Assembly (NCBI RefSeq): GCF_900607235.1
Contig: NZ_LR027848.1
Location: forward strand, 671,241-735,240
Origin: Olivibacter jilunii
GTDB lineage: Bacteria > Bacteroidota > Bacteroidia > Sphingobacteriales > Sphingobacteriaceae
Direction: 5' to 3'
DNA: 64,000 bases
A program made the translations under genes and the position numbers. Positions 42,467 through 57,169 of this stretch are shown piece after piece (the stretch's first letter is position 1; each line of letters begins with the position of its first letter). The notes under the pieces are model-generated. The model was not told the DNA's origin. It saw nothing but the letters and a program-made list of their open reading frames with translations, and ran no database searches.

Positions 42467-43258
42467 CTACACATCCTCATTTAAAAGACGTTCAAGTTCG
42501 TCATGCGTAATATTCATATTAACATTTCCTTGTTTGGCATATGAAATCTCGCCCGTTTCTTCAGACACAATAACCGCAACCGCATCACTCATTTCGGTAA
42601 CGCCAATACCGGCGCGGTGCCGCAGGCCAAATTGGAGCGGAAGGTCTTCGCTATCGGATAAAGGTAGGATACAACTGGCTGTTTTGATTCTAAAATCCAC
42701 GATTACCAGGGCTCCGTCGTGTAGTGGACTGTTTTTTTGAAAAATGCTTTCTAATAAGCGTTTTGAAATTTCGGCATCTATAAATTCGCCGCTATTCTGA
42801 TAGTATTCCTCATCAAAAAATTTAGAGAAAACGATCAGCGCACCGGTCCGTGATTTAGACATACTCCTACAAGCATCAATAATAGGTTTTAATCGAGCGG
42901 TATTGTCTTTTTCGATCTCTTTCTTTCCCAGGAAAAGTGACCAAAGTTTTTTATTTCGTCTAAAGCTGATGTTCTTTCCGATATGAATTAAAAATCGCCT
43001 TATTTCCTGCTGGAACACAACAATTAATGCAATGGAACCGACACTGATAAAGCCACCAAATATTTCGGTAAGCAAGCGCATTTGCGATTGCTTTACCACT
43101 AAATAGGCTAAATAGATAATGAACAGTCCGATCAGGATATTTACCGCAATGGTTCCCCTGATGAGGTTATAAATGTAATAGATGATGATAGCTACCAAAA
43201 AGATATCAATTACATCCAGTAGGCGGATGTTGAAAAAGCTAAAATCAATATTGCCCAT
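42467..43258 (-). CDS. cdaA: Diadenylate cyclase CdaA
   Basis: This 263-residue membrane enzyme synthesises cyclic di-AMP from two ATP. Three transmembrane helices fill residues ~10-85. The DAC domain has the catalytic SPLHDGALVI (DGA motif, ~180) and FGLRHRAGIGVTE (RHR motif, ~212), followed by VAVIVSEETGEIS. It corresponds to the CdaA (DacA) type rather than DisA. A TolC-like gene lies 67 bp upstream on the same strand. Folate or glmM partners, common elsewhere, are not in view. Confidence 0.95.
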   Translation of the reverse strand: MGNIDFSFFNIRLLDVIDIFLVAIIIYYIYNLIRGTIAVNILIGLFIIYLAYLVVKQSQMRLLTEIFGGFISVGSIALIVVFQQEIRRFLIHIGKNISFRRNKKLWSLFLGKKEIEKDNTARLKPIIDACRSMSKSRTGALIVFSKFFDEEYYQNSGEFIDAEISKRLLESIFQKNSPLHDGALVIVDFRIKTASCILPLSDSEDLPLQFGLRHRAGIGVTEMSDAVAVIVSEETGEISYAKQGNVNMNITHDELERLLNEDV

Positions 43259-43325: not shown

Positions 43326-44651
43326 TTAGCGCTGACCGTTATAGTAGTTCGCAATACGCTGTCTCAGTTGCCATTCATATTGAGCTACCACTAAACTGAT
43401 ATTCGCTTGATCATATTTTGTTTTTTGAAGAAGGAATTCAACTGAATTAATGTCCCCCGCTTCGAAACGAACTTCCGCCACGCGGAAGGACTCTTTGTAA
43501 GCTTCTACTTGCTCACGGATTTCCAGGTATTTTTCTTTGGCTGTCTGTAAATTGATCAACACCTGTGCTGTTTGCTGTTGTAAATTATTCTCTGTGTTCT
43601 CAAGATCAATCTCCGCGTTTCTTAATTCAAGTTTGGCCCTGGAGACATTAATTCTTCTTCTAAAGCCATCTAGAATAGGGATGCTCAAGGTCAATCCCGC
43701 GCCCTTTCCTAAATTGTCCTGAATTTGATCCATGTAGGTCCCTCTGTTTTCGTCAGCGTTTGAGTATCGACTAGTTAGGTTGGCCCCGAGGGATAATGTT
43801 GGAAAATATAAAGAACGAGTCGCTTTCAGTTGATATTCAGCGCTCTCTTTCCAGAATTGGGCCGCCTTTAAAGTTCCAAGTGAAGCAGCGGCTCTTTCAT
43901 AAAGGGCCTCTTGACTTAATGACGCACTGGAAACATCAGGTAGTTGATTAATCGGTTCAAATGAAAGCGCTTGGCTATAAGGGATATTTAATAAGCGTGT
44001 CAGCACGATTACATTTGTTCTAAGCGTATTTTCACCAGTTAATACTGTAATTTGATCACCGGAAAACTGTCCCTTTACATCATAATATTCTCCCGGAGCA
44101 ACTGCTCCGTCCCTATTTAGAATGGCTAAACGTTCCAGTTGTTTTTTGGTGACATCTCGTTGTTGTTTATACTGCTCCAGCGCATCTTTTGCTGTAATGA
44201 CCTGCAAGTACGCGAGGATCACGTCCATCGTTAGGTTATCTTTTATCCGCTGCTCATCCATTTGGGTAGCTTTATAAGCGAAGGCCTGTTGTCGAATGGT
44301 TCTAAGCAAATTGAGGCCGTTGAATAAAACCATGTTTGTATTCAGCCGCTGATTTCCCGATGTTATATTTTCAGAAACAATCGCGTTTGTTATGGGGTCT
44401 GTTGAAAAACCTGTGTTAATATTGTGATCGAAGCTTCCACTGAGCGTAGGCAATAAGGCCGCTTTAGCTTGTTTCAAATCTAATGAAGCAGCTTGGCTGC
44501 TGTTAGCACTTTTCTGTGCCTCCGCATTGTTTTTGAGCGCCAGTGCGATACATTCTTCTAGATTGTAGTGTGTTTTAACCGAGTCTTGACCATGCGTAAT
44601 TAACGGGAGTATATATAGAAAAAATAATATCGCTCTTTTAAGTGTGTTCAT
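43326..44651 (-). CDS. TolC family outer-membrane efflux protein
   Basis: This 441-residue protein has a signal peptide ending around THGQ. Two OEP repeats contain the long periplasmic coiled coils: YNLEECIALALKNNAEAQKS, SLDLKQAKAALLPTLSGSF, YQLKATRSLYFPTLSLGANL and EVRFEAGDINSVEFLLQKT. It forms the outer-membrane exit duct for a tripartite pump. Its upstream region carries the same TGTCCG-type dyads as two of the FtsX permease genes to the right, so it is probably co-regulated with them. No HlyD-type adaptor is in the window. Confidence 0.92.
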   Translation of the reverse strand: MNTLKRAILFFLYILPLITHGQDSVKTHYNLEECIALALKNNAEAQKSANSSQAASLDLKQAKAALLPTLSGSFDHNINTGFSTDPITNAIVSENITSGNQRLNTNMVLFNGLNLLRTIRQQAFAYKATQMDEQRIKDNLTMDVILAYLQVITAKDALEQYKQQRDVTKKQLERLAILNRDGAVAPGEYYDVKGQFSGDQITVLTGENTLRTNVIVLTRLLNIPYSQALSFEPINQLPDVSSASLSQEALYERAAASLGTLKAAQFWKESAEYQLKATRSLYFPTLSLGANLTSRYSNADENRGTYMDQIQDNLGKGAGLTLSIPILDGFRRRINVSRAKLELRNAEIDLENTENNLQQQTAQVLINLQTAKEKYLEIREQVEAYKESFRVAEVRFEAGDINSVEFLLQKTKYDQANISLVVAQYEWQLRQRIANYYNGQR

Positions 44652-44674: not shown

Positions 44675-44696
44675 ATACACAGGATAAGCCAAAAAC
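44675..44696 (-). promoter_or_regulatory. Candidate sigma-54-like promoter of the TolC gene
   Basis: The minus strand reads TTTTTGGC with a second element TGTGT at the sigma-54 spacing (GG-N10-GT instead of GG-N10-GC). It lies 55 bp downstream of the dyad pair, as an enhancer-dependent promoter would. The -12 element is imperfect, so this is tentative. Confidence 0.35.
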
Positions 44697-44744: not shown

Positions 44745-44781
44745 CGTTCGGAAACGGGCATTGGGTGTCCGTTTTCGGACA
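44745..44781 (-). promoter_or_regulatory. Tandem TGTCCG-N4-CGGACA dyads upstream of the TolC gene
   Basis: TGTCCGTTTTCGGACA (44766-44781) is a perfect 16-bp inverted repeat. CGTTCGGAAACGGGCA (44745-44760) is a degenerate copy exactly 21 bp away, on the same helix face. The same arrangement is found upstream of the permease genes at 48066-50456 and 53326-55734. Confidence 0.75.
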
Positions 44782-44800
44782 GTGCTAATGGCTGGACACC

Positions 44801-46048
44801 CTATCGTTGTATCTCTACTGCTTGCTCAAGATCAATTTCTTTTTCCCATTTTGCAATAACGAGCGTTGCCGCCGTGTTGCCTATAATATTGGTTAGCGCT
44901 CTGGCTTCGCTCATAAAACGATCGATCCCAAAAACCAGCGCAACGGACTCGACGGGAACATGACCAACCATTGGAAGCGTTGCGGCTAGGATGATAAATC
45001 CGCTGCCCGTTACACCGGCGGCCCCTTTTGAAGTGAGTAAAAGAACCAATAAAAGGGTTAATTGTTGATTGAAGTTCATGTGCATATTAAGTGCCTGCGC
45101 AATGAAAATTGCTGCCATGGTTAAGTATATTGAGGTACCGTCTAAATTAAAGGAATAGCCTGTTGGAATAACCAAGCCCACAACGGGTTTTGAACAGCCT
45201 GCCCGCTCTAATTTCTGCATAATGCCGGGTAGCGCAGACTCAGAAGAGGAGGTCCCCAAAACAATCAATAACTCTTCTTTAATGTATTTTAAGACTTTCC
45301 AAACGCTAAAGCCGTTAAAGTAAAGGACTGCTCCGATAATCAGAAAGATAAAAATAAGACAAGTAAGATAAAAGCAGAGCATAAGCATGCCTAGCTGCGT
45401 TAAGGAGTTCAAGCCGTATTTACCAATAGTAAAACCCATTGCTCCCAAAGCGCCTATAGGTGCCGCACGCATAATGATCTTAATCACGGCAAATATTCCG
45501 TTCAGAAAGGATTGCAAAACGGTCATCACCGGTTCTGCTGCTTTTCCGATTTTCGATAAGCCAAAACCAAGCAAGATTGCGAAAAAGAGCACCTGCAGCA
45601 AATCTCCTTGGGCAAGAGCACCAATGACATTATCCGGTATGATATGCAACAAAAAATCCTTAAGACTATCCTGGTGTTTGCTTTCCGTGATATAGCTTTC
45701 TACCGAGGAAGTATCCAAGGACGCGGGATCAATGTTCATCCCAGTACCGGGTTGTAAAATGTTTACGATCGCCATCCCCAAAAGCAACGCAATGCTGGTC
45801 ATTACCTCGAAATAAATAATGGCCGTTAGTCCCACTTTCCCTACCTTCTTCACGTTCTGCATGCCGGCAATGCCCAATACCACCGTACAGAAAATGAGCG
45901 GCGCAATAATCATCTTTACGAGCTTGATGAAGCCATCTCCGAGCGGTTTAAGTGATTCGCCTACTTTTGGATAATAATGACCAATTAATACACCAATAAT
46001 GATCGCTATAATAACCTGAAAATACAGACTTTTCAATAATTTCCTCAT
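44801..46048 (-). CDS. Dicarboxylate/amino acid:cation symporter (DctA/GltP family)
   Basis: This 415-residue membrane protein of the DAACS family has eight predicted transmembrane helices and two re-entrant loops. The substrate-binding signatures are [13 protein letters not shown] (first hairpin), [22 protein letters not shown] (TM7) and [21 protein letters not shown] (second hairpin), with the [21 protein letters not shown]-terminal block. It takes up C4-dicarboxylates or glutamate/aspartate with H+ or Na+. Whether succinate or glutamate is preferred cannot be read from these motifs. It is a single gene. Confidence 0.93.
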
Positions 46049-46161
46049 AGTGATGGTTGGACCTCGGATGTTTTAGGAATACGTAATTTTTTCCGCAAGA
46101 TAAACAAAAGCGAATAAAACTTTATAGATTTAGTAGCGTTTCCATAAAGAGAAAACAAGAT

Positions 46162-47259
46162 ATGAAGCGATATTTTATTGCCATTTGGCTTCTACTGAAC
46201 GTACATATTGGACTCCTCCGTGCGCAAAGCTTAAAGCCTGGGTTTGATAAACAAGAGTATCTTACTTTACTAAAGATTTCTTCTTCACAAGGCGATACAC
46301 TTAAACCGGGGCCCAATTATTTGGAGCCTCCTATGAATTATGAGCGCATTTATCGATCAAAAGAGGCGGGCTTAAAGAATCGATGGGACCTTTGGCTCAG
46401 TCGTGATAAACAAATAATGGCAGTTTCTATCCGAGGAACGATTAATGACCCCGTAAGCTGGTTAGAAAATTTTTATTCAGCAATGGTACCCGCGAAAGGC
46501 GTATTGCAATTGAATGATAGCACCCAATTTGATTACGTTTTTTCGAAGGATCCGAAGGCGGCAGTTCATGCCGGTTGGACCATCGGAATCGCTTCCATGG
46601 CACCTGATATCGTACATCAGATTAAGGAACAATATCAAAAAGGAACGAAACAGCTATTGATTATGGGACATAGTCAAGGTGGGGCGTTGGCCTTTTTGCT
46701 CACGTCTTACCTTCGATATCAACGGGAAGAGAAGCAATTACCTGCGGATTTACTTATCAAAACCTATTGCAGTGCGGCTCCTAAACCGGGGAATCTATAC
46801 TATGCATATGATTATGATTTCATTACAAGGGGTGGTTGGGGATTCACCATCGTAAATGCATTGGATTGGGTTCCTGAAACGCCTTTCTCACTACAAACCT
46901 TGGCAGATTTTAATCGGCTAAATCCCTTTCAAAACATTGATCAGGGATTAAAAAAACAGAAGCCTTTCTACGTTCGATGGTATCTTAAGCACGCCTTTAA
47001 CAAGCTCGATAAATCAAGTAAGAAATCTAGACGGAATTTTGAGAAGTACTTAGGCAAAACACTTTTTAAACAAACTCAGAAAACATTACCACAATTGAAA
47101 GAGCCCGCTTATGCGGAAACGATGAATTATATGCGAGCTGGAGTCCCTATTGTTCTCCAGCCCGACTCAACGTATTATAAGGTATATCCGGACACGGGGA
47201 AAAATGTTTTTGTGCACCATGCGTTGAAAGCCTATGCAGATTTACTGGAGCGGTATTAG
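46162..47259 (+). CDS. Exported class 3 lipase family protein
   Basis: This 365-residue alpha/beta hydrolase has a signal peptide ending at LLRAQ. The nucleophile elbow is GHSQGGALAFLL (about residues 173-184). The oxyanion-side VSIRGTINDPVSWLENF and the YCSAAPKPGN strand match PF01764-type lipases. The C-terminal ~100 residues are basic and helical. The catalytic Asp is probably in ALDWVPETPF, and a His near the end (VHHALKAY) could complete the triad. It ends 2 bp from the convergent ABC ATPase gene. Confidence 0.85.
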   Translation: MKRYFIAIWLLLNVHIGLLRAQSLKPGFDKQEYLTLLKISSSQGDTLKPGPNYLEPPMNYERIYRSKEAGLKNRWDLWLSRDKQIMAVSIRGTINDPVSWLENFYSAMVPAKGVLQLNDSTQFDYVFSKDPKAAVHAGWTIGIASMAPDIVHQIKEQYQKGTKQLLIMGHSQGGALAFLLTSYLRYQREEKQLPADLLIKTYCSAAPKPGNLYYAYDYDFITRGGWGFTIVNALDWVPETPFSLQTLADFNRLNPFQNIDQGLKKQKPFYVRWYLKHAFNKLDKSSKKSRRNFEKYLGKTLFKQTQKTLPQLKEPAYAETMNYMRAGVPIVLQPDSTYYKVYPDTGKNVFVHHALKAYADLLERY

Positions 47260-47261
47260 CA

Positions 47262-47927
47262 TTATTTCACAATCTGGCCATCCAAAAGCTCGATAATTCG
47301 ATTGCCGTACTCGGCGTTTTTCTCTGAGTGTGTAACCTGTATGATCGTTACACCATCTTCTTCGTTCAGCTGCTTAAATAAATCCATAATTTCTTCTCCT
47401 TGCTTGGAATTTAGGTTGCCGGTTGGTTCATCGGCCAATAATAATTTAGGGGTAGTAGCGAGTGCACGGGCAATGCCAACGAGTTGCTGTTGTCCGCCTG
47501 ATAATTGAGAAGGGAAGAGATCTTTCTTGCCGACGATTCCAAATCGGTCTATTAGGTCTGCCACGATTGCTTTGCGCTCGCTACCCTTTAGGTTTTTATA
47601 AATGAGCGGTGTTTCGATATTCTCATAAACAGTTAGCTCGTCAATCAAATGGTAGGCTTGAAATACAAAGCCAATATGCTCTTTGTAAAGTGCGGAGCGT
47701 TGTTTCTCCTTTAATCGTAGCACTTCTTGTCCAAGGAATTGATAGCTGCCTTCATCCGGTTCATCCAGGAGCCCCAAAACGTGTAATAAGGTAGACTTTC
47801 CTGAACCGGAAGGCCCCATAATCGATACAAACTCACCTTCACTGATAGTAAGATTGATATCTTTTAACACAAATGAACGGTTGCCGCCCACATTATACCA
47901 CTTGAAAATATTGCTCAGTTGAATCAT
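47262..47927 (-). CDS. ABC transporter ATP-binding protein, LolD/MacB type
   Basis: This 221-residue ATPase has Walker A GPSGSGKST (38-46), signature LSGGQQQLVGIARAL (~141-155), Walker B LLLADEPTGNLNS (~160) and the H-loop VTHSEKNA. VFQAYHLIDELTVYENIETPL is typical of the LolD/MacB/FtsE subfamily that works with FtsX-like permeases. It lies 138 bp downstream of the permease at 48066-50456 and is the only ATPase in this array. It probably serves several of the permeases, which are mechanotransmission rather than channel-type subunits. Confidence 0.95.
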   Translation of the reverse strand: MIQLSNIFKWYNVGGNRSFVLKDINLTISEGEFVSIMGPSGSGKSTLLHVLGLLDEPDEGSYQFLGQEVLRLKEKQRSALYKEHIGFVFQAYHLIDELTVYENIETPLIYKNLKGSERKAIVADLIDRFGIVGKKDLFPSQLSGGQQQLVGIARALATTPKLLLADEPTGNLNSKQGEEIMDLFKQLNEEDGVTIIQVTHSEKNAEYGNRIIELLDGQIVK

Positions 47928-48065
47928 CGTTTTTTTAGATTAAAAAATAAAAATTAAAAGTAAAAAGCCAAGTTCATTGGTACATTAAAATAAACAAAAC
48001 ATTAAAAATCAAAAAACACCGCTGATTCTTAATCTTTATAAGATTCTCCTTTAAGCTCGACAATT

Positions 48066-50456
48066 TCATTCGTCTTTTAAGGTATCAGCTGGGTTAACAA
48101 TAGAAACCTTGATCGCCTGATAACTAATCGTAATGGACGCTAAAAGCAGAGTCAATACGGCGCCTACAGCGAAAATATGCCAAGATAAATGAATGCGATA
48201 GGCAAAACCATCTAACCATTGACTTGTGCACCACCAAGCAAGAGGTGTAGCTACCAAAATTGCCATACCTATTAACTGAAGGAACGGTTTATTGAGTAAA
48301 AGGAAGAGCTGTCGCGTATTGGCGCCTAAAACTCTCCGTATACTTACTTCTTTTTCGCGCAGACTGATTGTAAAGGCCGACATGCTAAATAGGCCTAATA
48401 GCGCCACAATCATGACCAAAGTTGAAAACGCCGTAAAAGCTTGGCGGAGTTGTTCTTGTTTAGCGTAGAGTGCAGCATACTGCTGATCCAGAAAGTCGTA
48501 AATAAGGTACTTTCCGTCCAGTTTATTGATGGATGGCCATTGTTTTTTCAACGTTTCCATCGTTGAGCGGATGCTATGTCCGTTTACTTTCACTAAAATA
48601 TCACACTTAAAGGGATGATTCGGATAACCGCACTTCGTTTGTAGCGTGTAAGCTGTTGGCTTGATAAGCTGTTCGAAACCTTGCATTTTGCTATCCTTTA
48701 CGATGCCTATGATCGTGTAAGTCTGATCACAGATACTGATTTTTTCGCCGTTCGGTTGCTTTATTCCCAAGCGTCGTGCTGCCGACTCATTTACTACGAT
48801 GGATTGCGTCGTATCCGACAGAAGGGATGAGGAGAAAGTTCTGCCTGATAGCAGATTCATACCCAAAGTTTCGAAATAATCAAAATCAACACCTACATGA
48901 TCTAATGAATATGTTTTATCGCTGTAAGTAAATGCTTCATTGCTTGGTGCCGGCCCACCGGGGTAGTTTGTTACCACAGTGACTTCCTCGATACCCGGAA
49001 TGGCTTTCATTTGGTTTCTAATAGAGGCGAATTGAGCAGGTTTGTTGAAAAGGGTAAGATTTTTAATATGTACGACTTGATCGACACTAAACCCTTTATC
49101 ACTTTTTTCCATATAGTTCATTTGCTTATTAATGACGAGCATCGCACTGATAAAAATAAAAGCGATAATAAATTGAAACATGAGCAAGGCACTTCTTAAG
49201 CTAAAAGCCCGTTGTCCATTATGGAATTGACCCTTAATGATGTTAATAGGATGATAACCGGATAAGATGTAGGCAGGATATATACCTGATAGTAGCGTAG
49301 CTAGAAGAACGGCCGTGCCCAGTTGACCAATTACGCTCATATTGAAATCGAAAGAAGAAAAATCGTACCTAAAAAAAGTAATCATGGTGTTCCAGCTGAT
49401 ACTGATCAAAAGGCAGGCAATAACAGCAGCTATGAGACATTGTGCAAATACTTCCAACAGAAACTGAAGAGCCAAACGTTTTCGGGTTACACCAAAGACT
49501 TTCTTCATACCGATTTCTTTAAATCTTCTCTGTGCTTGTACCAACATTAAATTGGCAAAGTTCATGCAGGCCAATAGTAAGATCACTGAAGAAAGAACAC
49601 CCAGCGCCCAGACGATCTTGTATCCTGTATCGGAACCGATCCTTGGACGCAGATGCAAATTTTTTAGGGGATCAAGGTAAATGTTGGCTTCAGCGCGTAT
49701 TGATCCTTTAATTTCTCTTTGTTTAGCTATTGTATTATGGTAGATGGTATTGATTTTAGCGGTGAGCTCCTCTATCCTGGTTCCTGGCCTTACAAGTATA
49801 TAGGTTTGATAAACATTATTATCACCATCTCCTTTCCCTTGTGCGATGTCCTCTTTAAAAGCAATGTAATCGTATTCAAAATTTGACAAAAGGCGAGGTT
49901 TGCTAATGCCATGTATGTTCTCTGTAAAACCGCTCTGCTCGTTCATTAAGGATACGATCTTGGGCGCCTTGAAAGCTGCTTGCTTTTCATTAGGGAAAAG
50001 CTTTTTACCTACCTCGGCCGACAATAATCCGATTGATTTTTCCGGAGAATTAGTGATAGATAAACCTTCAAGCTGAATAGCGAAAATATCCGCTATTGTT
50101 CGATCGGCGCCCAACCAGTTCTTGATATAAAACATATCATTCTCCGAAATAAAGGGAATTTCAAAAGGAGCTCTAGCGACGCGGCCGGCGCTTTCTATTT
50201 CAGGAACTGCAGCTTTCAGTGCAGGCGCAAGTGCTGCAGGTGTAAGATCAGATAGGTTATCTTTGTTGATTAAACCGATAAGATAGATGTTATCGTAGTT
50301 GGGGTTCCACCTATCGTAGCTGTTTTCTCGATGGATGTAGGCATAGGCTAAAATGAAGCCGGCGAAGCCAATTGCCAGTCCTAAAATGTTAAGCAAGGTA
50401 AACAGCTTGGATTTCCAAGCCGTTCTCCACGCTATTTTTAGGTTATTGGTGTTCAT
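48066..50456 (-). CDS. ABC transporter permease, double FtsX/MacB type
   Basis: This 796-residue permease has two MacB-like halves. A TM near residues 18-42 and periplasmic domain (~45-280) are followed by three TMs (~285-405) with FKEIGMKKVFG. A second TM (~425), periplasmic domain and three C-terminal TMs with EVSIRRVLGA follow. It ends in NPADTLKDE. It is the most divergent of the five permeases in the window and lies next to the ATPase. Its promoter region carries TGTCCG-type dyads and a sigma-54-like element. The substrate is unknown; MacB relatives move peptides, lipoproteins or drugs out of the periplasm. Confidence 0.9.
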   Translation of the reverse strand: MNTNNLKIAWRTAWKSKLFTLLNILGLAIGFAGFILAYAYIHRENSYDRWNPNYDNIYLIGLINKDNLSDLTPAALAPALKAAVPEIESAGRVARAPFEIPFISENDMFYIKNWLGADRTIADIFAIQLEGLSITNSPEKSIGLLSAEVGKKLFPNEKQAAFKAPKIVSLMNEQSGFTENIHGISKPRLLSNFEYDYIAFKEDIAQGKGDGDNNVYQTYILVRPGTRIEELTAKINTIYHNTIAKQREIKGSIRAEANIYLDPLKNLHLRPRIGSDTGYKIVWALGVLSSVILLLACMNFANLMLVQAQRRFKEIGMKKVFGVTRKRLALQFLLEVFAQCLIAAVIACLLISISWNTMITFFRYDFSSFDFNMSVIGQLGTAVLLATLLSGIYPAYILSGYHPINIIKGQFHNGQRAFSLRSALLMFQFIIAFIFISAMLVINKQMNYMEKSDKGFSVDQVVHIKNLTLFNKPAQFASIRNQMKAIPGIEEVTVVTNYPGGPAPSNEAFTYSDKTYSLDHVGVDFDYFETLGMNLLSGRTFSSSLLSDTTQSIVVNESAARRLGIKQPNGEKISICDQTYTIIGIVKDSKMQGFEQLIKPTAYTLQTKCGYPNHPFKCDILVKVNGHSIRSTMETLKKQWPSINKLDGKYLIYDFLDQQYAALYAKQEQLRQAFTAFSTLVMIVALLGLFSMSAFTISLREKEVSIRRVLGANTRQLFLLLNKPFLQLIGMAILVATPLAWWCTSQWLDGFAYRIHLSWHIFAVGAVLTLLLASITISYQAIKVSIVNPADTLKDE

Positions 50457-50644
50457 ATTTTATTTATCAAGTATGGGATCAAGCCTGCCTGCCGGTAGGC
50501 AGGTATCAAGATATTTTAAGAGCCTGCTTATAAATATGAATCTTATGTCTTGATACCCATGTCTTATGTCTTTTTTCTAAAAAGGCTAAGAGTAGGTTAC
50601 TACCTACCCAGAGCCATCATTTATAACCAATCGTACCAAAATAG

Positions 50645-50664
50645 GCATAAATAAAACCAAAAAC
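50645..50664 (-). promoter_or_regulatory. Candidate sigma-54-like promoter of the 48066-50456 permease
   Basis: The minus strand reads TTTTTGGTTTTATTTATGCC: GG and GC are separated by the canonical 10 bp of sigma-54 (-24/-12) promoters. It lies 56 bp downstream of the dyad pair, almost the same distance as at the TolC gene. Confidence 0.45.
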
Positions 50665-50713
50665 TATAAGTTTCTGATTTTTAGTCTGTTGGTTTGATTC
50701 TGATTTTGATAGC

Positions 50714-50750
50714 TGTTCGATAGTGCACAACCGGTGTTCGGAAACGGACA
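50714..50750 (-). promoter_or_regulatory. Tandem TGTCCG-type dyads upstream of the 48066-50456 permease
   Basis: TGTTCGGAAACGGACA (50735-50750) matches the TGTCCG-N4-CGGACA dyad with one change. TGTTCGATAGTGCACA (50714-50729), a weaker copy, lies 21 bp away. This is the same geometry as at the TolC gene. Confidence 0.65.
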
Positions 50751-50768
50751 GTGTTTTTTTGTCGTAAT

Positions 50769-50832
50769 GGTTATTTGTTGTTAGTTATTCGTTATTCGGC
50801 CCAATAACAGATAACGAGTAACTAATAACTAA
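50769..50832. repeat. Hairpin repeat, copy 1 (after a permease stop)
   Basis: Imperfect inverted arms built of GTTATT / TTAGTT words meet at a central GGCCC. Copy 3 at 55851-55910 is clearly the same sequence and copy 2 at 53258-53318 has the same design. It follows the stop codon at 50835 by about two bases on the minus strand. It is probably a terminator or a REP-like mRNA-stabilising element. Confidence 0.65.
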
Positions 50833-50834
50833 AT

Positions 50835-53255
50835 TTATTCATTCCTCAAACTATCAACCGGATTAGCCCTTGCTGCTTTAATGGCCTGTACGCTCATCGT
50901 AAAAAATGCCACACAAATGGCTACCAAACCAGCTAATGCAAATATCCACCATTGAATTTCTATCCGATAGGCAAAGCTCTGTAGCCATTTATTCATGGCC
51001 CACCAAGCGATGGGTGAAGCAATTAAGATCGATAATACCACTAGTTTTAAGAAGTCTTTCGAAAGTAAAGCGACAATCCCTGCAATAGAAGCACCCAGTA
51101 CTTTGCGGATACCGATTTCCTTTGTGCGCTGATAGGCCGTTAAAGTGATCAAACCCAACAGACCTAAGCAACTTATTAGAATAGCGACGACTGTTGCTAG
51201 GTTGATAATTTTCGACATTTGTCGTTCTTGCGTATATAAGTCTTCAATGCTTTTATCGTAGAAGGTATATTCAAAAGTCTCTTCCGGATAAAACTTTTTC
51301 CAGCGTTTTTCTATTTCAGCGATGCTTTCTTGCCAGCTTTCCGGATTACGTTCCCTTAATTTTATATTGTATGTTGCATTTATTTGCTTATCAATGAGCA
51401 AAATAATAGGATCAATAGAACTGTAAAATGTCTTATTGTGAAAATCCTTTACGACGCCTACAATAGGAGCCTGTTTGCCATCTTGGGGACCGATGAATTT
51501 CCCGATCGCGTCTTTTGGCGATTTAATGCCCAATACCCTTAACATAGTTTCATTAATTAGATACTCATTTACGGTATCAAGCGGCAAGAGATTGCGACCG
51601 GCCAATAACTGCATATTGTAAAGTGCAAGATAGGCGGTATCGATATTCTTTAGATAAGGTTGGAATTCCTTTTTTGCACCACCATTATCAGGTATATAAT
51701 CGTAGTTATTGCTTATTGTATTATTGCTTAGAGGAGGGGCTGCTAAGGAAACGGCTTCTACTCCTTTCAGCTTTTTCAACTCATTTAACAAGGTATATTT
51801 GGTGCCTTTGTCGTTACTCACTTTTCGCCAGGGAACATTCACCAATAAGATGGCATCTTTGTTAAATCCTAAATCTTTATGTAGTGTATATCGAAGCTGC
51901 TGACCTACTATAACCGCGCACACAATAAATAACATGGCAATTACAAACTGGAAAATGATAAGCGCTTTTCGGAGTGATAGTCGAACACTTCCAATAGTAA
52001 TAAGGCTTTGATTCCTAAGAATTTGAATGGGATTGACACGTGTAATCAGCCAGCCAGGATACAGGCCCGCACATAGGGTGGTGAGCAATAAGAATAACCA
52101 GAACAGAGCGAAAATCCGGAAGTAGTTAATGTAAGCGTGCATCTGTTCAGGAAATAGTTCTTTGAAGGATAGCAGAAACAAGTAAGTGAGAAAACAAGAA
52201 AGGATCGCTGCTAACAGGCAAGTAATAAAAGTCTCGCCTAAAAATTGATAGATTAACCGTCTACCTGAACTACCCATTGTTTTGCGAACAGCGATTTCTT
52301 TCCCCCGCTTAGGTAATTGTGCCGTGCTCAGATTAATAAAATTGATAATAGCTAAAATTAACAAAAAGATTGCTACGCCAATGAGGCCTAATAGAACAGG
52401 TTTGTTAGCTTTATGGACATTATTTTCTCCGTATTCGGTGGTAAAGTGCATAGTGGCGACAGGAATCAGGCGTTGATCCCGTTTAAATCGCCATTTTTCA
52501 AATAAGTCTTTTGTGTTCTTTACAGAAAGCGCATTAATTTGCTGCTGCGTTTTGGCAACAACACTTTTTTCGTCAAGTTGTATATATAATTTATCATTGG
52601 AATTGGTGGAGCCCCAATCGCTCTGTGAAAAATAATCCTTAGGTAAGGGAAAAAACTCCTTGCCGTAAAAACTAGTAGCAAATGTTAAATCATCAACAAT
52701 CCCGCTAACCTGCTTTTGAATTGTATCGTTATAGATTAGTGTTTTGCCAATGATATCGTTAAAACCTATACGAGGGAAATACTTTTCAGCCCGGCTTTTT
52801 GTTAAAACAACGGTGTTGGGATTATTGAGTGCCTCATCTTTAGCTCCAGCTAGCCACTCGTAGGGAAGCATGTTAAAGTATTTAGCTACTGTCATTACTT
52901 GACGATCTGGCGATTTAAACGTATTCTCTTTACCATCTGCCTGCGGTACGGTTACTTGTTCCATAAACTGTTCTGCAACAGGTACGACGAACTTAATGCC
53001 GGGAATCTCCGTTTCTATCGCCCGGCCAAGAGGTTTGGGCACGCCAACATTGTGTCCTTCCTGTCCGTCAAATTCCATATGGCTTACCACATTGAAAATT
53101 TGCTTGTGATTTGGAATTGCCTGTTCGAAGCCGAATTCAAAACTGACCAATTGATAAATAATAAAACAAGCACTGATACCGATACTTAAACCTAAAATAT
53201 TTAAGCTGGTGAACAATTTATTGTGCCACAGCTGACGGAAAATTGTTTTTAACAT
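50835..53255 (-). CDS. ABC transporter permease, double FtsX/MacB type
   Basis: This 806-residue permease has the two-half FtsX architecture: N-terminal TM (LFTSLNILGLSIGISACFII, ~15-36), a periplasmic domain, three TMs after GKEIAVRKTMGSSGR, a second TM (~430-450), a second periplasmic domain and three terminal TMs after TKEIGIRKVLGAS. It ends in ARANPVDSLRNE. It is 70 bp downstream of the next permease, with no dyads between, so it is likely in the operon driven from 56.0 kb. No ATPase domain is present. Confidence 0.9.
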   Translation of the reverse strand: MLKTIFRQLWHNKLFTSLNILGLSIGISACFIIYQLVSFEFGFEQAIPNHKQIFNVVSHMEFDGQEGHNVGVPKPLGRAIETEIPGIKFVVPVAEQFMEQVTVPQADGKENTFKSPDRQVMTVAKYFNMLPYEWLAGAKDEALNNPNTVVLTKSRAEKYFPRIGFNDIIGKTLIYNDTIQKQVSGIVDDLTFATSFYGKEFFPLPKDYFSQSDWGSTNSNDKLYIQLDEKSVVAKTQQQINALSVKNTKDLFEKWRFKRDQRLIPVATMHFTTEYGENNVHKANKPVLLGLIGVAIFLLILAIINFINLSTAQLPKRGKEIAVRKTMGSSGRRLIYQFLGETFITCLLAAILSCFLTYLFLLSFKELFPEQMHAYINYFRIFALFWLFLLLTTLCAGLYPGWLITRVNPIQILRNQSLITIGSVRLSLRKALIIFQFVIAMLFIVCAVIVGQQLRYTLHKDLGFNKDAILLVNVPWRKVSNDKGTKYTLLNELKKLKGVEAVSLAAPPLSNNTISNNYDYIPDNGGAKKEFQPYLKNIDTAYLALYNMQLLAGRNLLPLDTVNEYLINETMLRVLGIKSPKDAIGKFIGPQDGKQAPIVGVVKDFHNKTFYSSIDPIILLIDKQINATYNIKLRERNPESWQESIAEIEKRWKKFYPEETFEYTFYDKSIEDLYTQERQMSKIINLATVVAILISCLGLLGLITLTAYQRTKEIGIRKVLGASIAGIVALLSKDFLKLVVLSILIASPIAWWAMNKWLQSFAYRIEIQWWIFALAGLVAICVAFFTMSVQAIKAARANPVDSLRNE

Positions 53256-53257
53256 TG

Positions 53258-53318
53258 TAGTTATTTGTAGTTAGTTGTTTGTTCTTGATAAGGCATCGCG
53301 AATAACCAAGAACTAGTA
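53258..53318. repeat. Hairpin repeat, copy 2 (between two permease genes)
   Basis: The arms GTTATTTGTAGTTAGTTG... and ...CTAGTAACGAAATT form a weaker imperfect stem of the same word composition as copies 1 and 3. It directly follows the stop of the 53326-55734 permease, preceded by the same AATAAATTT-like spacer seen at copy 1. Confidence 0.5.
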
Positions 53319-53325
53319 ACGAAAT

Positions 53326-55734
53326 TTATTCTGTTCTTAAACTTTTAACCGGATTGGCCAATGCCGATTTAATGGCACGAAAGCTAATGGTAAGCATGGC
53401 AATTGATATTGCTAGAATACCCGCAACAACAAAAATCCACCATTCAATATCGATCCGATAGGCAAAATCTTCCAGCCATTTATTCATGCCTAACCAGGCA
53501 ATGGGAACAGCAATTAGGATGGCGATAAGTACAAGCTTCAGAAAATCTTTAGACAGTAGTTGAACTAAGCTCTGAACGCTTGCTCCGAGTACCTTTCTGA
53601 TACCGATTTCCTTGATCCGCTGCTCCGCGACAAAAGTGGCCAATCCCAAAAGCCCCATGCAGGAAATTAAAATAGCCAGTACGGCAAGGATGCCTACAAT
53701 TTCGCTGGTTGTTTGATCCGTTTTGTAAAGCTCCGTGAAATGATCATCTAAAAATTGGTATTCAAAATCACTATCGGGACTTATGCGTTTCCATACGGAT
53801 TGAATATAGGCCAGTGCTTCCGAAGCCCTTTCACCGTTGATCTTAATAGAAAGCTCGTTGTAACCAAAGTCTTTTCGGTTGTAAAGGCATAGCGTTTCGA
53901 TTTTATGATGTAGCGAATTGAAATTAAAATCCTTCGCAATTCCAATGATTGTACTCCCGGAGTCTAAACCATTAAATCCGAAACGCTTGCCAATTAAAGA
54001 AGCAAAGGATTGATTACATTCTTCTTTTAAAAGTTCTTTGGCCAGTGTTTCATTGATAATATAGGTTCGGGCATCGTCACCCGGTCTATCCGGTGAAAAA
54101 TTACGGCCAGCAAGAAGTGGAATCTGATAGACCGTCAGAAAATCAGGGTCTACCACAATTTGAGACGTTACCAGCTCTTTTGCTCCTCGATCTCCGTGAA
54201 ATTTAACGCTTGTTTGATGCAAGTTGTTGCCTAACTTTTGTTGATTGGCCGTAACGCCTTTAATCAAACTGCTCGTTAAAAGTTCCTGTTTTAAGCTTTC
54301 ATACACGCGGTAGGCGTTGTTATCCAATGTCACAGTAACCATTTGGTCTCGCGTAAAACCGACATCTTTTTTTTGCATAAAACGGAGTTGCTTAATGGCC
54401 AGTAAGGTTGCTGTAATTAATACAATAGCACAGGTAAATTGTGCGACAACTAGAATATTACGAAAGAATGCCTTGTTTTTACCACCGGTAACCGTGCCTT
54501 TTAGTACAACAGTTGGTTTAAATGCCGAGAGGTAAGCAGCAGGATATAGACCTGCTAAAAGTCCTAAACATAATGTGCCTAATAATAAATAGAGGATTAG
54601 CGACGGATCATGAAGCAAAGGGAAAGCAATGGCTCGGAGACTTATATGGTTTACATATAGGAGCATTAATTTTACCATCCCACAGGCTAAAATCACTGCG
54701 ATGAAGCAGAGAAGAACGGATTCACCGATAAATTGAAGATAAAGTTGCCCTCTTTTAGCGCCGGTACTCTTTCTTACGCCGATTTCCTTCGCCCGTGCTG
54801 TTGAGCGGGCAGTGGTTAGGTTTACAAAATTGATAGAAGCGATCACCAGAACCACTAGTGCAATAGCGAAGAAGATAAGAGTATATTTACTATTGAATTT
54901 TTGATAATTGATATAATCATGCGTGATCTCGGTTGAGCCGGCATGCACATCTCGAAGCGGCTGCAGGAATAACTCATAGCCCTTTGCTTGTTGTTCCTCC
55001 ATGTGTCTCTTAAGGAAAGCTGGAAACCTTTTCTCAAGGCTTTCTATGTCGGCATTAGGTGCGATTTCCAGATAGGTCGTTAGCCAATTGCCTCCCCAGT
55101 TCTGCATTTGTTGAGGGCCAACATACGTGTTCATGGAGAATAGGGCATCAAAATGAATATGTGAATTTTCAGGAATATCTACTAAAACGCCTGTAACAGT
55201 GAAATTGGTAGTGTCCCTACCGTAGGTGGTTATGGTCTTTCCGAGCGCTTCTTCCTTACCAAAGATCTTCGCTGCGGTTTTTTGTGTTAACACCAAGCTG
55301 TTCGGCTTTTCAAAAACGGTACTTCTGTTGCCTTTTAACAGTTCGAAATCAAATAGTTGAAGAAAGGTTGAGTCGACTAAGAAGGTGGAAGGCATTATAT
55401 GTCGTACTCCGTTTACTAAAAAGGAAGCTTTACCCCATTGATTGACACGCGTAAAGTTCACTATTTCGGCAAATTCTTGCTGAAGACTAGGTCCCATTGG
55501 ATACATAGAGAGGGCTACCTTTTGGGGAGCCACCATGCCCTCGGGCTTTTGTACTTCATTTAGGCGATAAATGTTCTTCTTATGGATCGCATCAAAATTC
55601 CGTTCGTAGTTTACGAAGAGAATAATCACAATACAGACAGCCATACCAATGGCCAGGCCCAAAATATTGAGCAGCGAATAAAACTTGTTTTTCCATAAGT
55701 TGCGCCAAGCCGTTTTGAAATAGTTTTTCAACAT
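53326..55734 (-). CDS. ABC transporter permease, double FtsX/MacB type
   Basis: This 802-residue permease has the common plan: N-terminal TM (FYSLLNILGLAIGMAVCIVI), a periplasmic domain with NPNADIESL-type linkers, KEIGVRKSTGAKRGQL with three TMs, a middle TM near 430, and KEIGIRKVLGAS with three terminal TMs. It ends in ALANPVKSLRTE. It is similar to the 50835 and 59256 genes. It is the first complete permease after the dyad region at 56.05 kb and probably the head of the operon to the ATPase, although it has a long (~250 bp) leader. Confidence 0.9.
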   Translation of the reverse strand: MLKNYFKTAWRNLWKNKFYSLLNILGLAIGMAVCIVIILFVNYERNFDAIHKKNIYRLNEVQKPEGMVAPQKVALSMYPMGPSLQQEFAEIVNFTRVNQWGKASFLVNGVRHIMPSTFLVDSTFLQLFDFELLKGNRSTVFEKPNSLVLTQKTAAKIFGKEEALGKTITTYGRDTTNFTVTGVLVDIPENSHIHFDALFSMNTYVGPQQMQNWGGNWLTTYLEIAPNADIESLEKRFPAFLKRHMEEQQAKGYELFLQPLRDVHAGSTEITHDYINYQKFNSKYTLIFFAIALVVLVIASINFVNLTTARSTARAKEIGVRKSTGAKRGQLYLQFIGESVLLCFIAVILACGMVKLMLLYVNHISLRAIAFPLLHDPSLILYLLLGTLCLGLLAGLYPAAYLSAFKPTVVLKGTVTGGKNKAFFRNILVVAQFTCAIVLITATLLAIKQLRFMQKKDVGFTRDQMVTVTLDNNAYRVYESLKQELLTSSLIKGVTANQQKLGNNLHQTSVKFHGDRGAKELVTSQIVVDPDFLTVYQIPLLAGRNFSPDRPGDDARTYIINETLAKELLKEECNQSFASLIGKRFGFNGLDSGSTIIGIAKDFNFNSLHHKIETLCLYNRKDFGYNELSIKINGERASEALAYIQSVWKRISPDSDFEYQFLDDHFTELYKTDQTTSEIVGILAVLAILISCMGLLGLATFVAEQRIKEIGIRKVLGASVQSLVQLLSKDFLKLVLIAILIAVPIAWLGMNKWLEDFAYRIDIEWWIFVVAGILAISIAMLTISFRAIKSALANPVKSLRTE

Positions 55735-55850
55735 GTGTTAGTTCTTTAAGGTGTTTCAGCTATTCGCCCGAGGGCTCATGGTTTCAGCATCGTGTCTGTC
55801 TTTTATGGTGCTTCAGCTATCCACCATAGGCGGATGGTTTTAACATAATA

Positions 55851-55910
55851 GTTATTTGTTGTTAGTTAATCGTTCGTGGCCCAATAACCAATAACGAGGA
55901 ACGAATAACC
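55851..55910. repeat. Hairpin repeat, copy 3
   Basis: The left arm starts GTTATTTGTTGTTAGTTA and the right arm ends ACGAATAACC, around a central GGCCC. It is nearly the same as copy 1. Here it does not follow an intact gene, but a few codons that resemble the C-terminal end of a permease. Confidence 0.65.
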
Positions 55911-55916
55911 AAATCA

Positions 55917-55940
55917 TTCATTCCCTAAGCTATTTGCAAT
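55917..55940 (-). pseudogene. Possible 3' remnant of a deleted FtsX permease gene
   Basis: The minus strand here reads IANSLGNE followed by a stop. Intact permeases in this array end in ANPVDSLRNE or similar. One 9-bp deletion and one substitution account for the difference. The stop is followed, after the same short spacer, by the same hairpin repeat as in the 50835 gene. Only about eight codons remain, so chance cannot be ruled out. Confidence 0.4.
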
Positions 55941-56046
55941 GGTTTATCATCGTGGTATCAACTTGTAATCCGACTATCCAAAATGCTTCCATAAAATATA
56001 ATTGTTTGTATATAAATGTTTTATGTTGTTCTTTTTTAGCGTGCGG

Positions 56047-56084
56047 TGTCCGAAATCGGACAGATTGATGTTCGATTTCGGACA
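56047..56084. promoter_or_regulatory. Tandem TGTCCG-N4-CGGACA dyads between permease and MDR genes
   Basis: TGTCCGAAATCGGACA (56047-56062) is a perfect 16-bp dyad. TGTTCGATTTCGGACA (56069-56084) is one base off, 22 bp away. The pair lies between the leftward permease gene (55734) and the rightward MDR gene (56225) and could serve either. Confidence 0.75.
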
Positions 56085-56176
56085 TCTAGGGGTAGCATAG
56101 AGCATAAGAAGTCATTCTTTACAATAGTGTAACAAAGAGGCATACAAAATGAGATACAACCAACAATGCCCGGCAA

Positions 56177-56224: not shown

Positions 56225-57169
56225 ATGAAAGCTGCAGTAATAGAAAAAAAGGGTACTGATCCGAGATTTAAGATAAAGGAACTTCCTCGGCCGATTATTA
56301 AGAGCGGACAAGTGCTGGTTCGGAATTATGCTTCATCCGTTAATCCGATAGATGTAATGGCGCGCAATGGGAGGGCTTTGCTCGCTAGTGCCGGTTTTAG
56401 TAACCAAGTAATCGGCAGTGATTTTTGTGGTAAAGTATTACAATCAAAAAGTCGACTGTTTAAGGAAGGGGATGAGGTGTTTGGAATGATTTCCGCAATA
56501 AAAGGTGGCGCCTATGCGGAAGAGCTGACAGTTAATGCGGATCAAATAGCATTAAAACCGAAGAATCTTGATTACGTGGAAGCAGCCGTGATACCCTTGG
56601 TGGGACTGACTGCATATCAAGGATTATTTAAGGTAGGTAGAATACAAGAAAAGGAGAATATTTTGATTACCGGTTGCACAGGAGGCGTTGGCTCGGTGGC
56701 CGTTCAATTGGCACGAACTTTAGACTGTCACATTAGCGGTTTATGTAGCGAGAAACATCGGGCATATGCTCATAGCGTGGGTTGCGATGTGGTGATCGAC
56801 TATCAAAATCAGCAGATTCCTTCAGGTGCCCGGTTTGATCTTATATTTGATGCGGCCGGCATGTACACGTATAGCGACTTAAAACATCATTTAAACGAAC
56901 AGGGCCTATTCGTGACCACAAGAGGCGAAACCAATAATATAAAGGGTTTGGTCAAAACCGCGGTTGATGTTGTATTTGAACCTTATATGAAGTTTGTTTT
57001 TGTCAAGCCCAATGCCGACGATCTCAACGTATTAAAGGAAATGATTGAGCAGGGGAAACTAAAATTGCATATTGAAAAAACCTTTTTGCTAAATCAATTA
57101 ACCGAAGCACAAAGAATGATGAAAAATGGTGGTTTCGTCGGAAAAATAGGAGTCGATATTGGTGAATAA
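56225..57169 (+). CDS. Zinc-free MDR family NAD(P)-dependent oxidoreductase
   Basis: This 314-residue medium-chain dehydrogenase/reductase resembles quinone oxidoreductases. The N-terminal GroES-like part (VLVRNYASSVNPIDVMARNG ... IGSDFCGKVL) lacks the zinc cysteines of alcohol dehydrogenases. The Rossmann part has ITGCTGGVGSVAVQLA (~140-155) and FDLIFDAAG. The C-terminus has the usual AQRMMKNGGFVGKIGVDI. It reduces quinones or enone-type compounds with NAD(P)H. It is flanked by export genes and divergent from a permease, so a role in detoxification fits but is inferred. Confidence 0.88.
   Translation: MKAAVIEKKGTDPRFKIKELPRPIIKSGQVLVRNYASSVNPIDVMARNGRALLASAGFSNQVIGSDFCGKVLQSKSRLFKEGDEVFGMISAIKGGAYAEELTVNADQIALKPKNLDYVEAAVIPLVGLTAYQGLFKVGRIQEKENILITGCTGGVGSVAVQLARTLDCHISGLCSEKHRAYAHSVGCDVVIDYQNQQIPSGARFDLIFDAAGMYTYSDLKHHLNEQGLFVTTRGETNNIKGLVKTAVDVVFEPYMKFVFVKPNADDLNVLKEMIEQGKLKLHIEKTFLLNQLTEAQRMMKNGGFVGKIGVDIGE

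Follow-up and report, generated by a model that had tools for sequence, protein, structure and literature searches.

Paired dyads upstream of exporter genes in Olivibacter jilunii: probable tandem enhancers of an NtrC-type sigma-54 regulator

We analysed a window of 64,000 nucleotides (nt) from Olivibacter jilunii (contig NZ_LR027848.1, positions 671,241 to 735,240 of the forward strand; G000:C1:671241-735240, where G000 is the 6.70-Mb genome). Three gaps between its exporter genes carry two copies each of a 16-bp inverted repeat, or dyad, of the form TGTYCG-N4-CGRACA. Very probably, these pairs are tandem enhancers of a single NtrC-type sigma-54 regulator, encoded at C1:807 kb, which would control exporter genes scattered over the genome. 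A preliminary description of the window had proposed an enhancer role of this type, and the proposal is well supported as a prediction. It draws on the positions of the sites and their pairing, the target genes, a promoter-like box at a near-fixed distance, the neighbourhood of regulator and kinase genes, the presence of RpoN, and conservation in relatives, all of which are read directly from the DNA.

All three pairs of the preliminary description are present where it had placed them. Pair 1 consists of a promoter-proximal dyad at 44745..44760 (CGTTCGGAAACGGGCA) and a distal dyad at 44766..44781. Pair 2 has its proximal dyad at 50714..50729 (TGTTCGATAGTGCACA) and its distal dyad at 50735..50750. 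In pair 3, the dyad at 56047..56062 is proximal for the permease side, and the second dyad is at 56069..56084 (all given on the forward strand). The start-to-start spacing is 21 bp in pairs 1 and 2 and 22 bp in pair 3. The partners at 44745 and 50714 are degenerate, with two mismatches each to the pattern, and the other four dyads match it exactly. Only at 44766 and 56047 is the repeat TGTCCG-N4-CGGACA, for which the element had been named, literally present. In the window, 13 dyads with up to two mismatches were counted versus 4.76 expected, and the largest count in 100 shuffles was 11. An extra pair with two mismatches in each copy lies at G000:C1:735581-735618, 341 bp beyond the window end, and precedes a permease gene whose start falls outside the window.

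Throughout the genome, the exact dyad occurs 16 times and the reversed control pattern not once. Thirteen of the 16 lie in pairs, giving 12 pairs with a spacing of 21-22 bp, of which ten precede permeases, one precedes TolC, and one (L028) precedes no recognised gene. The remaining three (L020, L024, and L026) are single and lie inside listed reading frames; they were taken as chance occurrences and excluded from the regulon. The genome-wide search that had been proposed as a check thus finds non-random pairs that precede permease, TolC, and HlyD genes. The original motif definition proved too strict. The spacing of two-site clusters (n = 51) is 21 bp in 33, 22 bp in 14, 20 bp in two, and 23 and 28 bp in one each, and the four central bases of the dyad vary between sites. 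At least one exact dyad is present in 55 of 101 genomes of the family. In the genus of G000, each of the five genomes has 15-17, and seven of nine genomes of genus g4 have 15-22 (the remaining two have 7 and 5). G037, which belongs to the genus of G000, is identical to Olivibacter sitiensis DSM 17696 (L079) over 1,000 bases (L162) of the compared stretch. The reversed control gave 0-3 matches in the 101 genomes, except for G066 (6) and G075 (4), and in some genera of the family its count equals or exceeds that of the dyad.

Which genes follow a pair was determined in G000 and in two further genomes, G063 and G092, for which regions around each exact dyad were taken (17 and 22, respectively), with weaker dyads covered inside these regions only. 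A permease start lies within 450 bp of 13/21 pair clusters in G000, 12/16 in G063, and 11/19 in G092, and both TolC and HlyD are pair targets in all three genomes. G000 encodes 33 duplicated MacB/FtsX permeases of about 800 amino acids (aa), hand-counted from 67 domain stretches, with some split in two frames and MacB/LolC-type proteins of about 410 aa excluded. With weaker pairs included, 22 of them have a pair directly upstream. A scoring matrix derived solely from G063 and G092, with their 22 permease pairs as the training set, was applied to G000, where 12 pair-led permeases scored 29.5-45.5 bits, and nine of the 12 in L248-L259 scored 21.2-42.2 bits. The 22nd pair-led permease is cut by the locus end and carries no score; its pair is known from the cluster listing. 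Another eight permeases each follow a pair-led gene of the same orientation; seven of these were scored, and none of the seven has its own pair. Among 261 non-permease open reading frames (ORFs) in the same loci, ten scored above 20 bits, all of them beside already-listed pairs including those of TolC, HlyD, and the regulator. This sample is non-random: its loci had been chosen because they contain a dyad, an activator, or RpoN, and the 12 permease leaders not yet covered were added.

A sigma-54-like -24/-12 box follows the proximal dyad on the target side. For TolC, it is located at 44677..44691 on the reverse strand (TGGCTTATCCTGTGT), 53 bp past the dyad, and for a 796-aa permease at 50645..50659 on the reverse strand (TGGTTTTATTTATGC). 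In these two gaps, the GG-N10-G(T/C) element was found at the distance claimed in the preliminary description. A poor -12 had been noted for the third gap, and the element there indeed reads GG-N10-GA; it faces the permease at an equal distance (55977..55991, reverse strand; TGGAAGCATTTTGGA, 9.2 bits). The box towards a divergent dehydrogenase gene is weaker still (56138..56152, forward strand; 4.0 bits).

We compared target and opposite sides in 50 of the 56 clusters of the three genomes, dropping single-dyad clusters and those whose side was unassigned. The target side was labelled by the permease profile in 35 clusters and assigned by hand post hoc in 15, of which at least two are probably wrong (G092 L232:3304 and L243:3221, which have a better box on the other side). 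The best match to the sigma-54 consensus TGGCAC-N5-TTGC falls 48-57 bp past the proximal dyad on 46/50 target sides versus 11/50 opposite sides. All 46 lie at 50-55 bp, 34 of them in the 35 permease-labelled and 12 in the 15 hand-assigned clusters. Shuffled target sides gave a mean of 6.3 and a maximum of 13. Without any model, TGG is the commonest positional 3-mer there (44/50 target sides; the best of the opposite side reaches 18/50). GG at 49-58 bp is found on 48/50 target versus 15/50 opposite sides, and GG-N10-G there on 38 versus 8. The boxes have the consensus TTTGGCA-N6-TTGT, i.e., TGGC-N7-TTGT, and TGG(C/T)-N7..9-TG anywhere within 20-120 bp occurs on 39/50 target versus 8/50 opposite sides. 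The case rests on this looser TGG(C) box; the test with the exact GG-N10-G(T/C) is weak.

In G000, the Sigma54_activat profile matches five genes strongly and seven further stretches weakly. RpoN is encoded once (490 aa; TIGR02395, 426.6 bits versus a cut-off of 277.35), and there is a second, weak PF04552 stretch (22.6 bits). The preliminary description had suggested to look for an NtrC-family regulator gene near HlyD, TolC, or FtsX genes. Such a gene is present at G000:C1:806840-808183 (L044:9841-11184), starting 71.6 kb past the window end. It encodes a 447-aa response regulator with a receiver, an AAA+ sigma-54 domain, and a Fis-type helix-turn-helix (HTH) domain, HTH_8 (PF00072, 72.5 bits; PF00158, 212.3 bits; PF02954, 52.6 bits; all above cut-off). 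Asp54 of the receiver and the Walker A motif are conserved. Together with the gene of a 439-aa kinase, it is divergent from an HlyD-LolD-permease-permease gene group, and a dyad pair lies in the gap between them (L044:9557/9578). The best NCBIfam scores of the regulator are 362.6 bits for AtoC, 358.4 for the PEP-CTERM regulator, and 335.0 for ZraR. As all scores for the 25 listed families (of 92) are below cut-off, it belongs to none of these 25.

The kinase has overlapping hydrophobic segments at residues 4-49 and a weak PAS match. Hydropathy of the N-terminal part of 78 orthologues, 30 of which were inspected individually, gave exactly two segments in 35 and one or three to six, often overlapping, in the rest. 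Residues 4-49 could accommodate two membrane helices joined by hardly any loop. Hence, the signal may perhaps come from inside the membrane or from a transporter.

A scan of genome contigs for the regulator gave at least 589 relatives, of which the best 80 loci were kept. Among these 80, the kinase is present in 78, HlyD in 60, and LolD in 60; 49 loci have HlyD and regulator genes in divergent orientation across a gap of less than 700 bp. A pair plus TGG box was found in 43 of the 49 gaps, at a distance of 51-54 bp in 42 and of 60 bp in one; shuffled gaps and the other orientation gave none. The rule was written after reading 26 of the 49 gaps and holds in 24 of the 26 read and 19 of the 23 unread. 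The loci with pair and box are mostly from Sphingobacteriales and Chitinophagales (e.g., Niastella). Cesiribacter (L133) is the only named member of the Cytophagales with an HlyD/regulator gap among the best 80 loci. In the listed Pontibacter loci, which were not part of the 49 gaps, usually a permease and not HlyD stands beside the regulator.

The strict dyad pair lies within 700 bp upstream of the regulator in 3 of the 80 loci only, and a blind scan for palindrome pairs likewise found TGT-type pairs in just three (L081, L119, and L139). On reading the 26 gaps, a 17-bp form, TGTATC-N5-CG-N-ACA, was seen. Beyond the Olivibacter/g4 group, pairs usually contain this form in one or both of their dyads. 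Because mixed pairs of the 17-bp and 16-bp forms occur (L089, L133, L135, and G001 C34:324224/324246), the two are suggested to be versions of one element. Forty-seven of the 101 genomes of the family encode a regulator of at least 61% identity, and in 19 of these 47 the 17-bp form lies no more than 600 bp from the regulator gene. A change in the recognition helix as the cause of the dyad change is not supported, as the helix is nearly invariant. In five Sphingobacterium loci (L119, L124, L128, L131, and L139), the module is rearranged: a TolC-family gene stands directly before the regulator gene, and the space between TolC and HlyD holds the pairs, at a distance of 1.4-2.2 kb upstream from the regulator.

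In the mechanism that we propose, each dyad would be bound by one HTH dimer of the regulator, and the step of 21-22 bp would place two dimers on the same face of the DNA, with their centres some 87 and 108 bp ahead of the predicted start site. NtrC-type tandem sites are typically located about 80-150 bp upstream of the start. Phosphorylation by the partner kinase would let the dimers assemble into a hexamer, which would open sigma-54 RNA polymerase at the TGGC-N7-TTGT box 50-55 bp downstream. Most of the duplicated permeases that stand alone would belong to the regulon, as would TolC and the HlyD-LolD-permease operon next to the regulator. With less certainty, the permeases might share the LolD ATPase, HlyD, and TolC, and the kinase might sense the state of the membrane or of the transporter, by analogy with Bce modules. 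A wider picture is tentative and we would sooner doubt than accept it. A membrane-sensing two-component system, acting through a quasi-rigid sigma-54 enhancer at 52 ± 2 bp, would make a common LolD/HlyD/TolC set serve about 30 interchangeable orphan permeases; as in Bce modules, these permeases would possibly keep the kinase informed of their load. In this picture, the distance kept across orders, while the dyad shifted between 16 and 17 bp, would indicate an enhancer without free looping.

Several observations weigh against control by the C1:807 kb regulator through sigma-54. Three of the 33 permeases (L251, L254, and L257) have no pair above 20 bits, and six of the 49 HlyD/regulator gaps lack pair and box (L092, L103, L136, L138, L141, and L155). 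The sigma-54 contact loop of the regulator is GAFTDA and not GAFTGA; in 110 aligned stretches from its own locus and relatives, the loop reads GAFTDA in 93, GAYTDA in 15, and GSFTGA in two, which are variants of one or two residues. Strict GG-N10-G(C/T) anywhere within 20-120 bp is found on 30/50 target and 25/50 opposite sides; after GG-N10, the 48 boxes continue with GT in 19, GA in eight, GC in seven, and others in 14, and the HlyD box of G000 is GG-N9-GT. Many genomes of the family with a 61-69% identical regulator have 0-3 exact 16-bp dyads, in part because the 17-bp form is used there. G007 has 12 dyads and a regulator of only 51% identity. In G092, the regulator gene lies away from HlyD and lacks a pair; autoregulation is therefore not a general feature. 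In the same-genus draft G015, with 17 exact dyads, regulator, kinase, and HlyD stayed below thresholds (regulator homologues of at most 40% identity at 1e-30, no kinase at 1e-30, no HlyD at 1e-60). As several neighbouring genes are missing together, an assembly gap in this 120-contig draft is possible. Of the only five exact dyads in G045, one precedes HlyD by about 115 bp. The regulator of this genome is fused by deletion to the kinase: residues 1-54 of the former run directly into residues 279-439 of the latter in one frame of 217 aa (L217:9257-9910). This looks like a natural internal deletion that removed the activator. Decay of dyads after this loss is suggestive only, since the permeases of G045 are uncounted and G015 points the opposite way.

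The dyads might be bound by another regulator, for example one of the four other NtrC-type proteins of G000, with the one at C1:807 kb merely lying nearby. G015, which retains three other activator homologues at 38-40% identity, and the unpaired regulator gene of G092 fit this explanation, and the other four activators of G000 likewise carry Fis-type HTH domains. However, by the rule used, no pair is present in the four 20-kb regions around these activators, and L044 is the only one of the five that holds a pair. The C1:807 kb regulator is also tied to HlyD with pair and box in most of the divergent gaps, its recognition helix hardly varies, and genomes rich in dyads track its orthologue: five or more exact 16-bp dyads are found in 17 of the 47 genomes with a regulator at least 61% identical versus 3 of the 54 others (Fisher p 1.3e-4, with kinship ignored). 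We therefore regard another binding protein as improbable. Slightly less probable still is a role of the dyads as operators at which a repressor or activator acts together with the Bacteroidetes sigma-A promoter, TAnnTTTG. This promoter would agree with the poor separation of the sides by strict GG-N10-G(C/T), and TAnnTTTG on 6/50 target and 12/50 opposite sides suggests that some divergent genes may use sigma-A. Yet the count on target sides is within the shuffle range (mean 3.0, maximum 10), for which the sigma-A reading was rejected; the element that is fixed in position on the target side is TGG(C) at 50-55 bp, and relatives have it equally far from the pair although the dyad changed. It is highly unlikely that the dyads are structural DNA, such as terminators, repeats of the repetitive extragenic palindrome type, or insertion scars, travelling with the duplicated permease genes. 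Many permeases are clustered paralogues and other repeats share the same gaps, but the pairs also precede the unrelated TolC and HlyD genes, are absent from the seven scored permeases behind another gene, vary in their four central bases, and keep the two-turn spacing and the box distance. Random or structural repeats were rejected on the reversed control, the pairing, and the target bias.

In the window, pair 1 leads the gene of a 441-aa TolC-family outer membrane efflux protein (43326..44651, reverse strand), an arrangement also seen in two other genomes. The gene of a CdaA-type diadenylate cyclase follows 67 bp behind on the same strand (42467..43258, reverse strand). It may be co-transcribed with TolC and possibly drawn into the export regulon. 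The TolC-CdaA neighbourhood is kept in G063, where CdaA, the cyclic di-AMP cyclase, is 96% identical. Pair 2 precedes the 796-aa duplicated MacB_PCD/FtsX permease (48066..50456, reverse strand), behind which lies a 221-aa LolD/DarD-like ATP-binding cassette (ABC) ATPase, probably in the same operon (47262..47927, reverse strand). For pair 3, the preliminary description had left the target as a permease and/or an MDR gene. The main target is probably the permease operon of an 802-aa duplicated permease (53326..55734, reverse strand), followed by an 806-aa one without its own pair (50835..53255, reverse strand). The right-hand ORF is a 314-aa zinc-binding dehydrogenase (56225..57169, forward strand), a possible divergent target. 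In both the 796-aa and the 802-aa permease, MacB_PCD and FtsX parts are duplicated. Towards the window end, a duplicated permease at 61841..64000 (reverse strand), which starts outside the window at G000:C1:735477, is led by the extra pair mentioned above, and an 811-aa permease without its own pair stands behind it (59256..61691, reverse strand). A repeat of about 37 nt at 50757-50793, 53247-53283, and 55838-55874 occupies the gaps around the 802- and 806-aa permeases. Distinct from it is a G+C-rich inverted repeat at 50484-50503, which is found again in the leaders of two other permeases (L017).

Elsewhere in G000, a pair with a good box (L025:15274-15309, contig C4) is followed after 94 bp by an in-frame ATG of a hydrolase with beta-lactamase fold (PF00144); the listed ORF starts upstream of the pair, and the nearer ATG was assumed as the start. 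Pairs with weak boxes precede a 93-aa ORF of no recognised family (L028:7461-7497, contig C7) and a 226-aa protein without a Pfam or NCBIfam family (L029:8423-8460, contig C13). The L025 hydrolase and the 226-aa protein are possible further targets.

If the proposed enhancer function is correct, most of the 33 stand-alone permeases of G000, whose role and control are obscure, gain a predicted common switch with a candidate regulator, kinase, and start site. About 90 natural promoters of a single geometry would then be at hand for studying close, fixed sigma-54 enhancers, and the published prediction that links sigma-54 to FtsX permeases would obtain a candidate activator and enhancer.

The predicted exporter resembles MacAB-TolC and the darobactin exporter DarBCDE in its HlyD-type adaptor, LolD-type ATPase, MacB-type permease, and TolC. 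Unlike in these systems, the permeases are of duplicated build and their genes are separate from that of the ATPase, and the scores for DarC (177.7 bits, NCBIfam cut-off 450) and DarD (304.3 bits, cut-off 375) are both below cut-off. The permeases are built like ADOP but are not members by score, as the two that were scanned reached 239.4 and 310.4 bits versus a TIGR03434 cut-off of 622.3. In the BceRS-BceAB antimicrobial-peptide modules of Firmicutes, as far as the available text of the reports describes them, an intramembrane-sensing kinase is encoded beside an ABC transporter (PMC3023708, PMC10314905). Similarly, the kinase described here has a single short hydrophobic N-terminal stretch and its gene lies beside MacB/FtsX-type permeases. 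Bce regulators are not known to be sigma-54 activators, and in contrast to Bce modules one switch would here serve about 30 permeases.

A survey of sigma-54 promoters has already reported their enrichment before COG0577 FtsX-like permeases in Bacteroidia, which it called the first evidence of such a link (PMC12316311). The available text of this survey gives no particular activator, enhancer motif, or TolC/HlyD regulon for these genes, and the words MacB, Sphingobacter, Chitinophag, UAS, and bEBP do not occur in it. Word searches of the literature likewise found no report of this activator or dyad enhancer. Thus, the link between sigma-54 and FtsX permeases in Bacteroidia is published, and neither that text nor those searches showed the activator, its enhancer, the fixed geometry, or a part for TolC and HlyD. 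The mechanism itself is NtrC-like. With activators of the NtrC, ZraR, and AtoC type, the system shares the order of receiver, AAA+, and HTH_8 domains, the partner kinase, and tandem dyads upstream of a -24/-12-like box, and it differs from them in the GAFTDA loop, the near-fixed distance between dyads and promoter over many promoters, and export permeases as targets.

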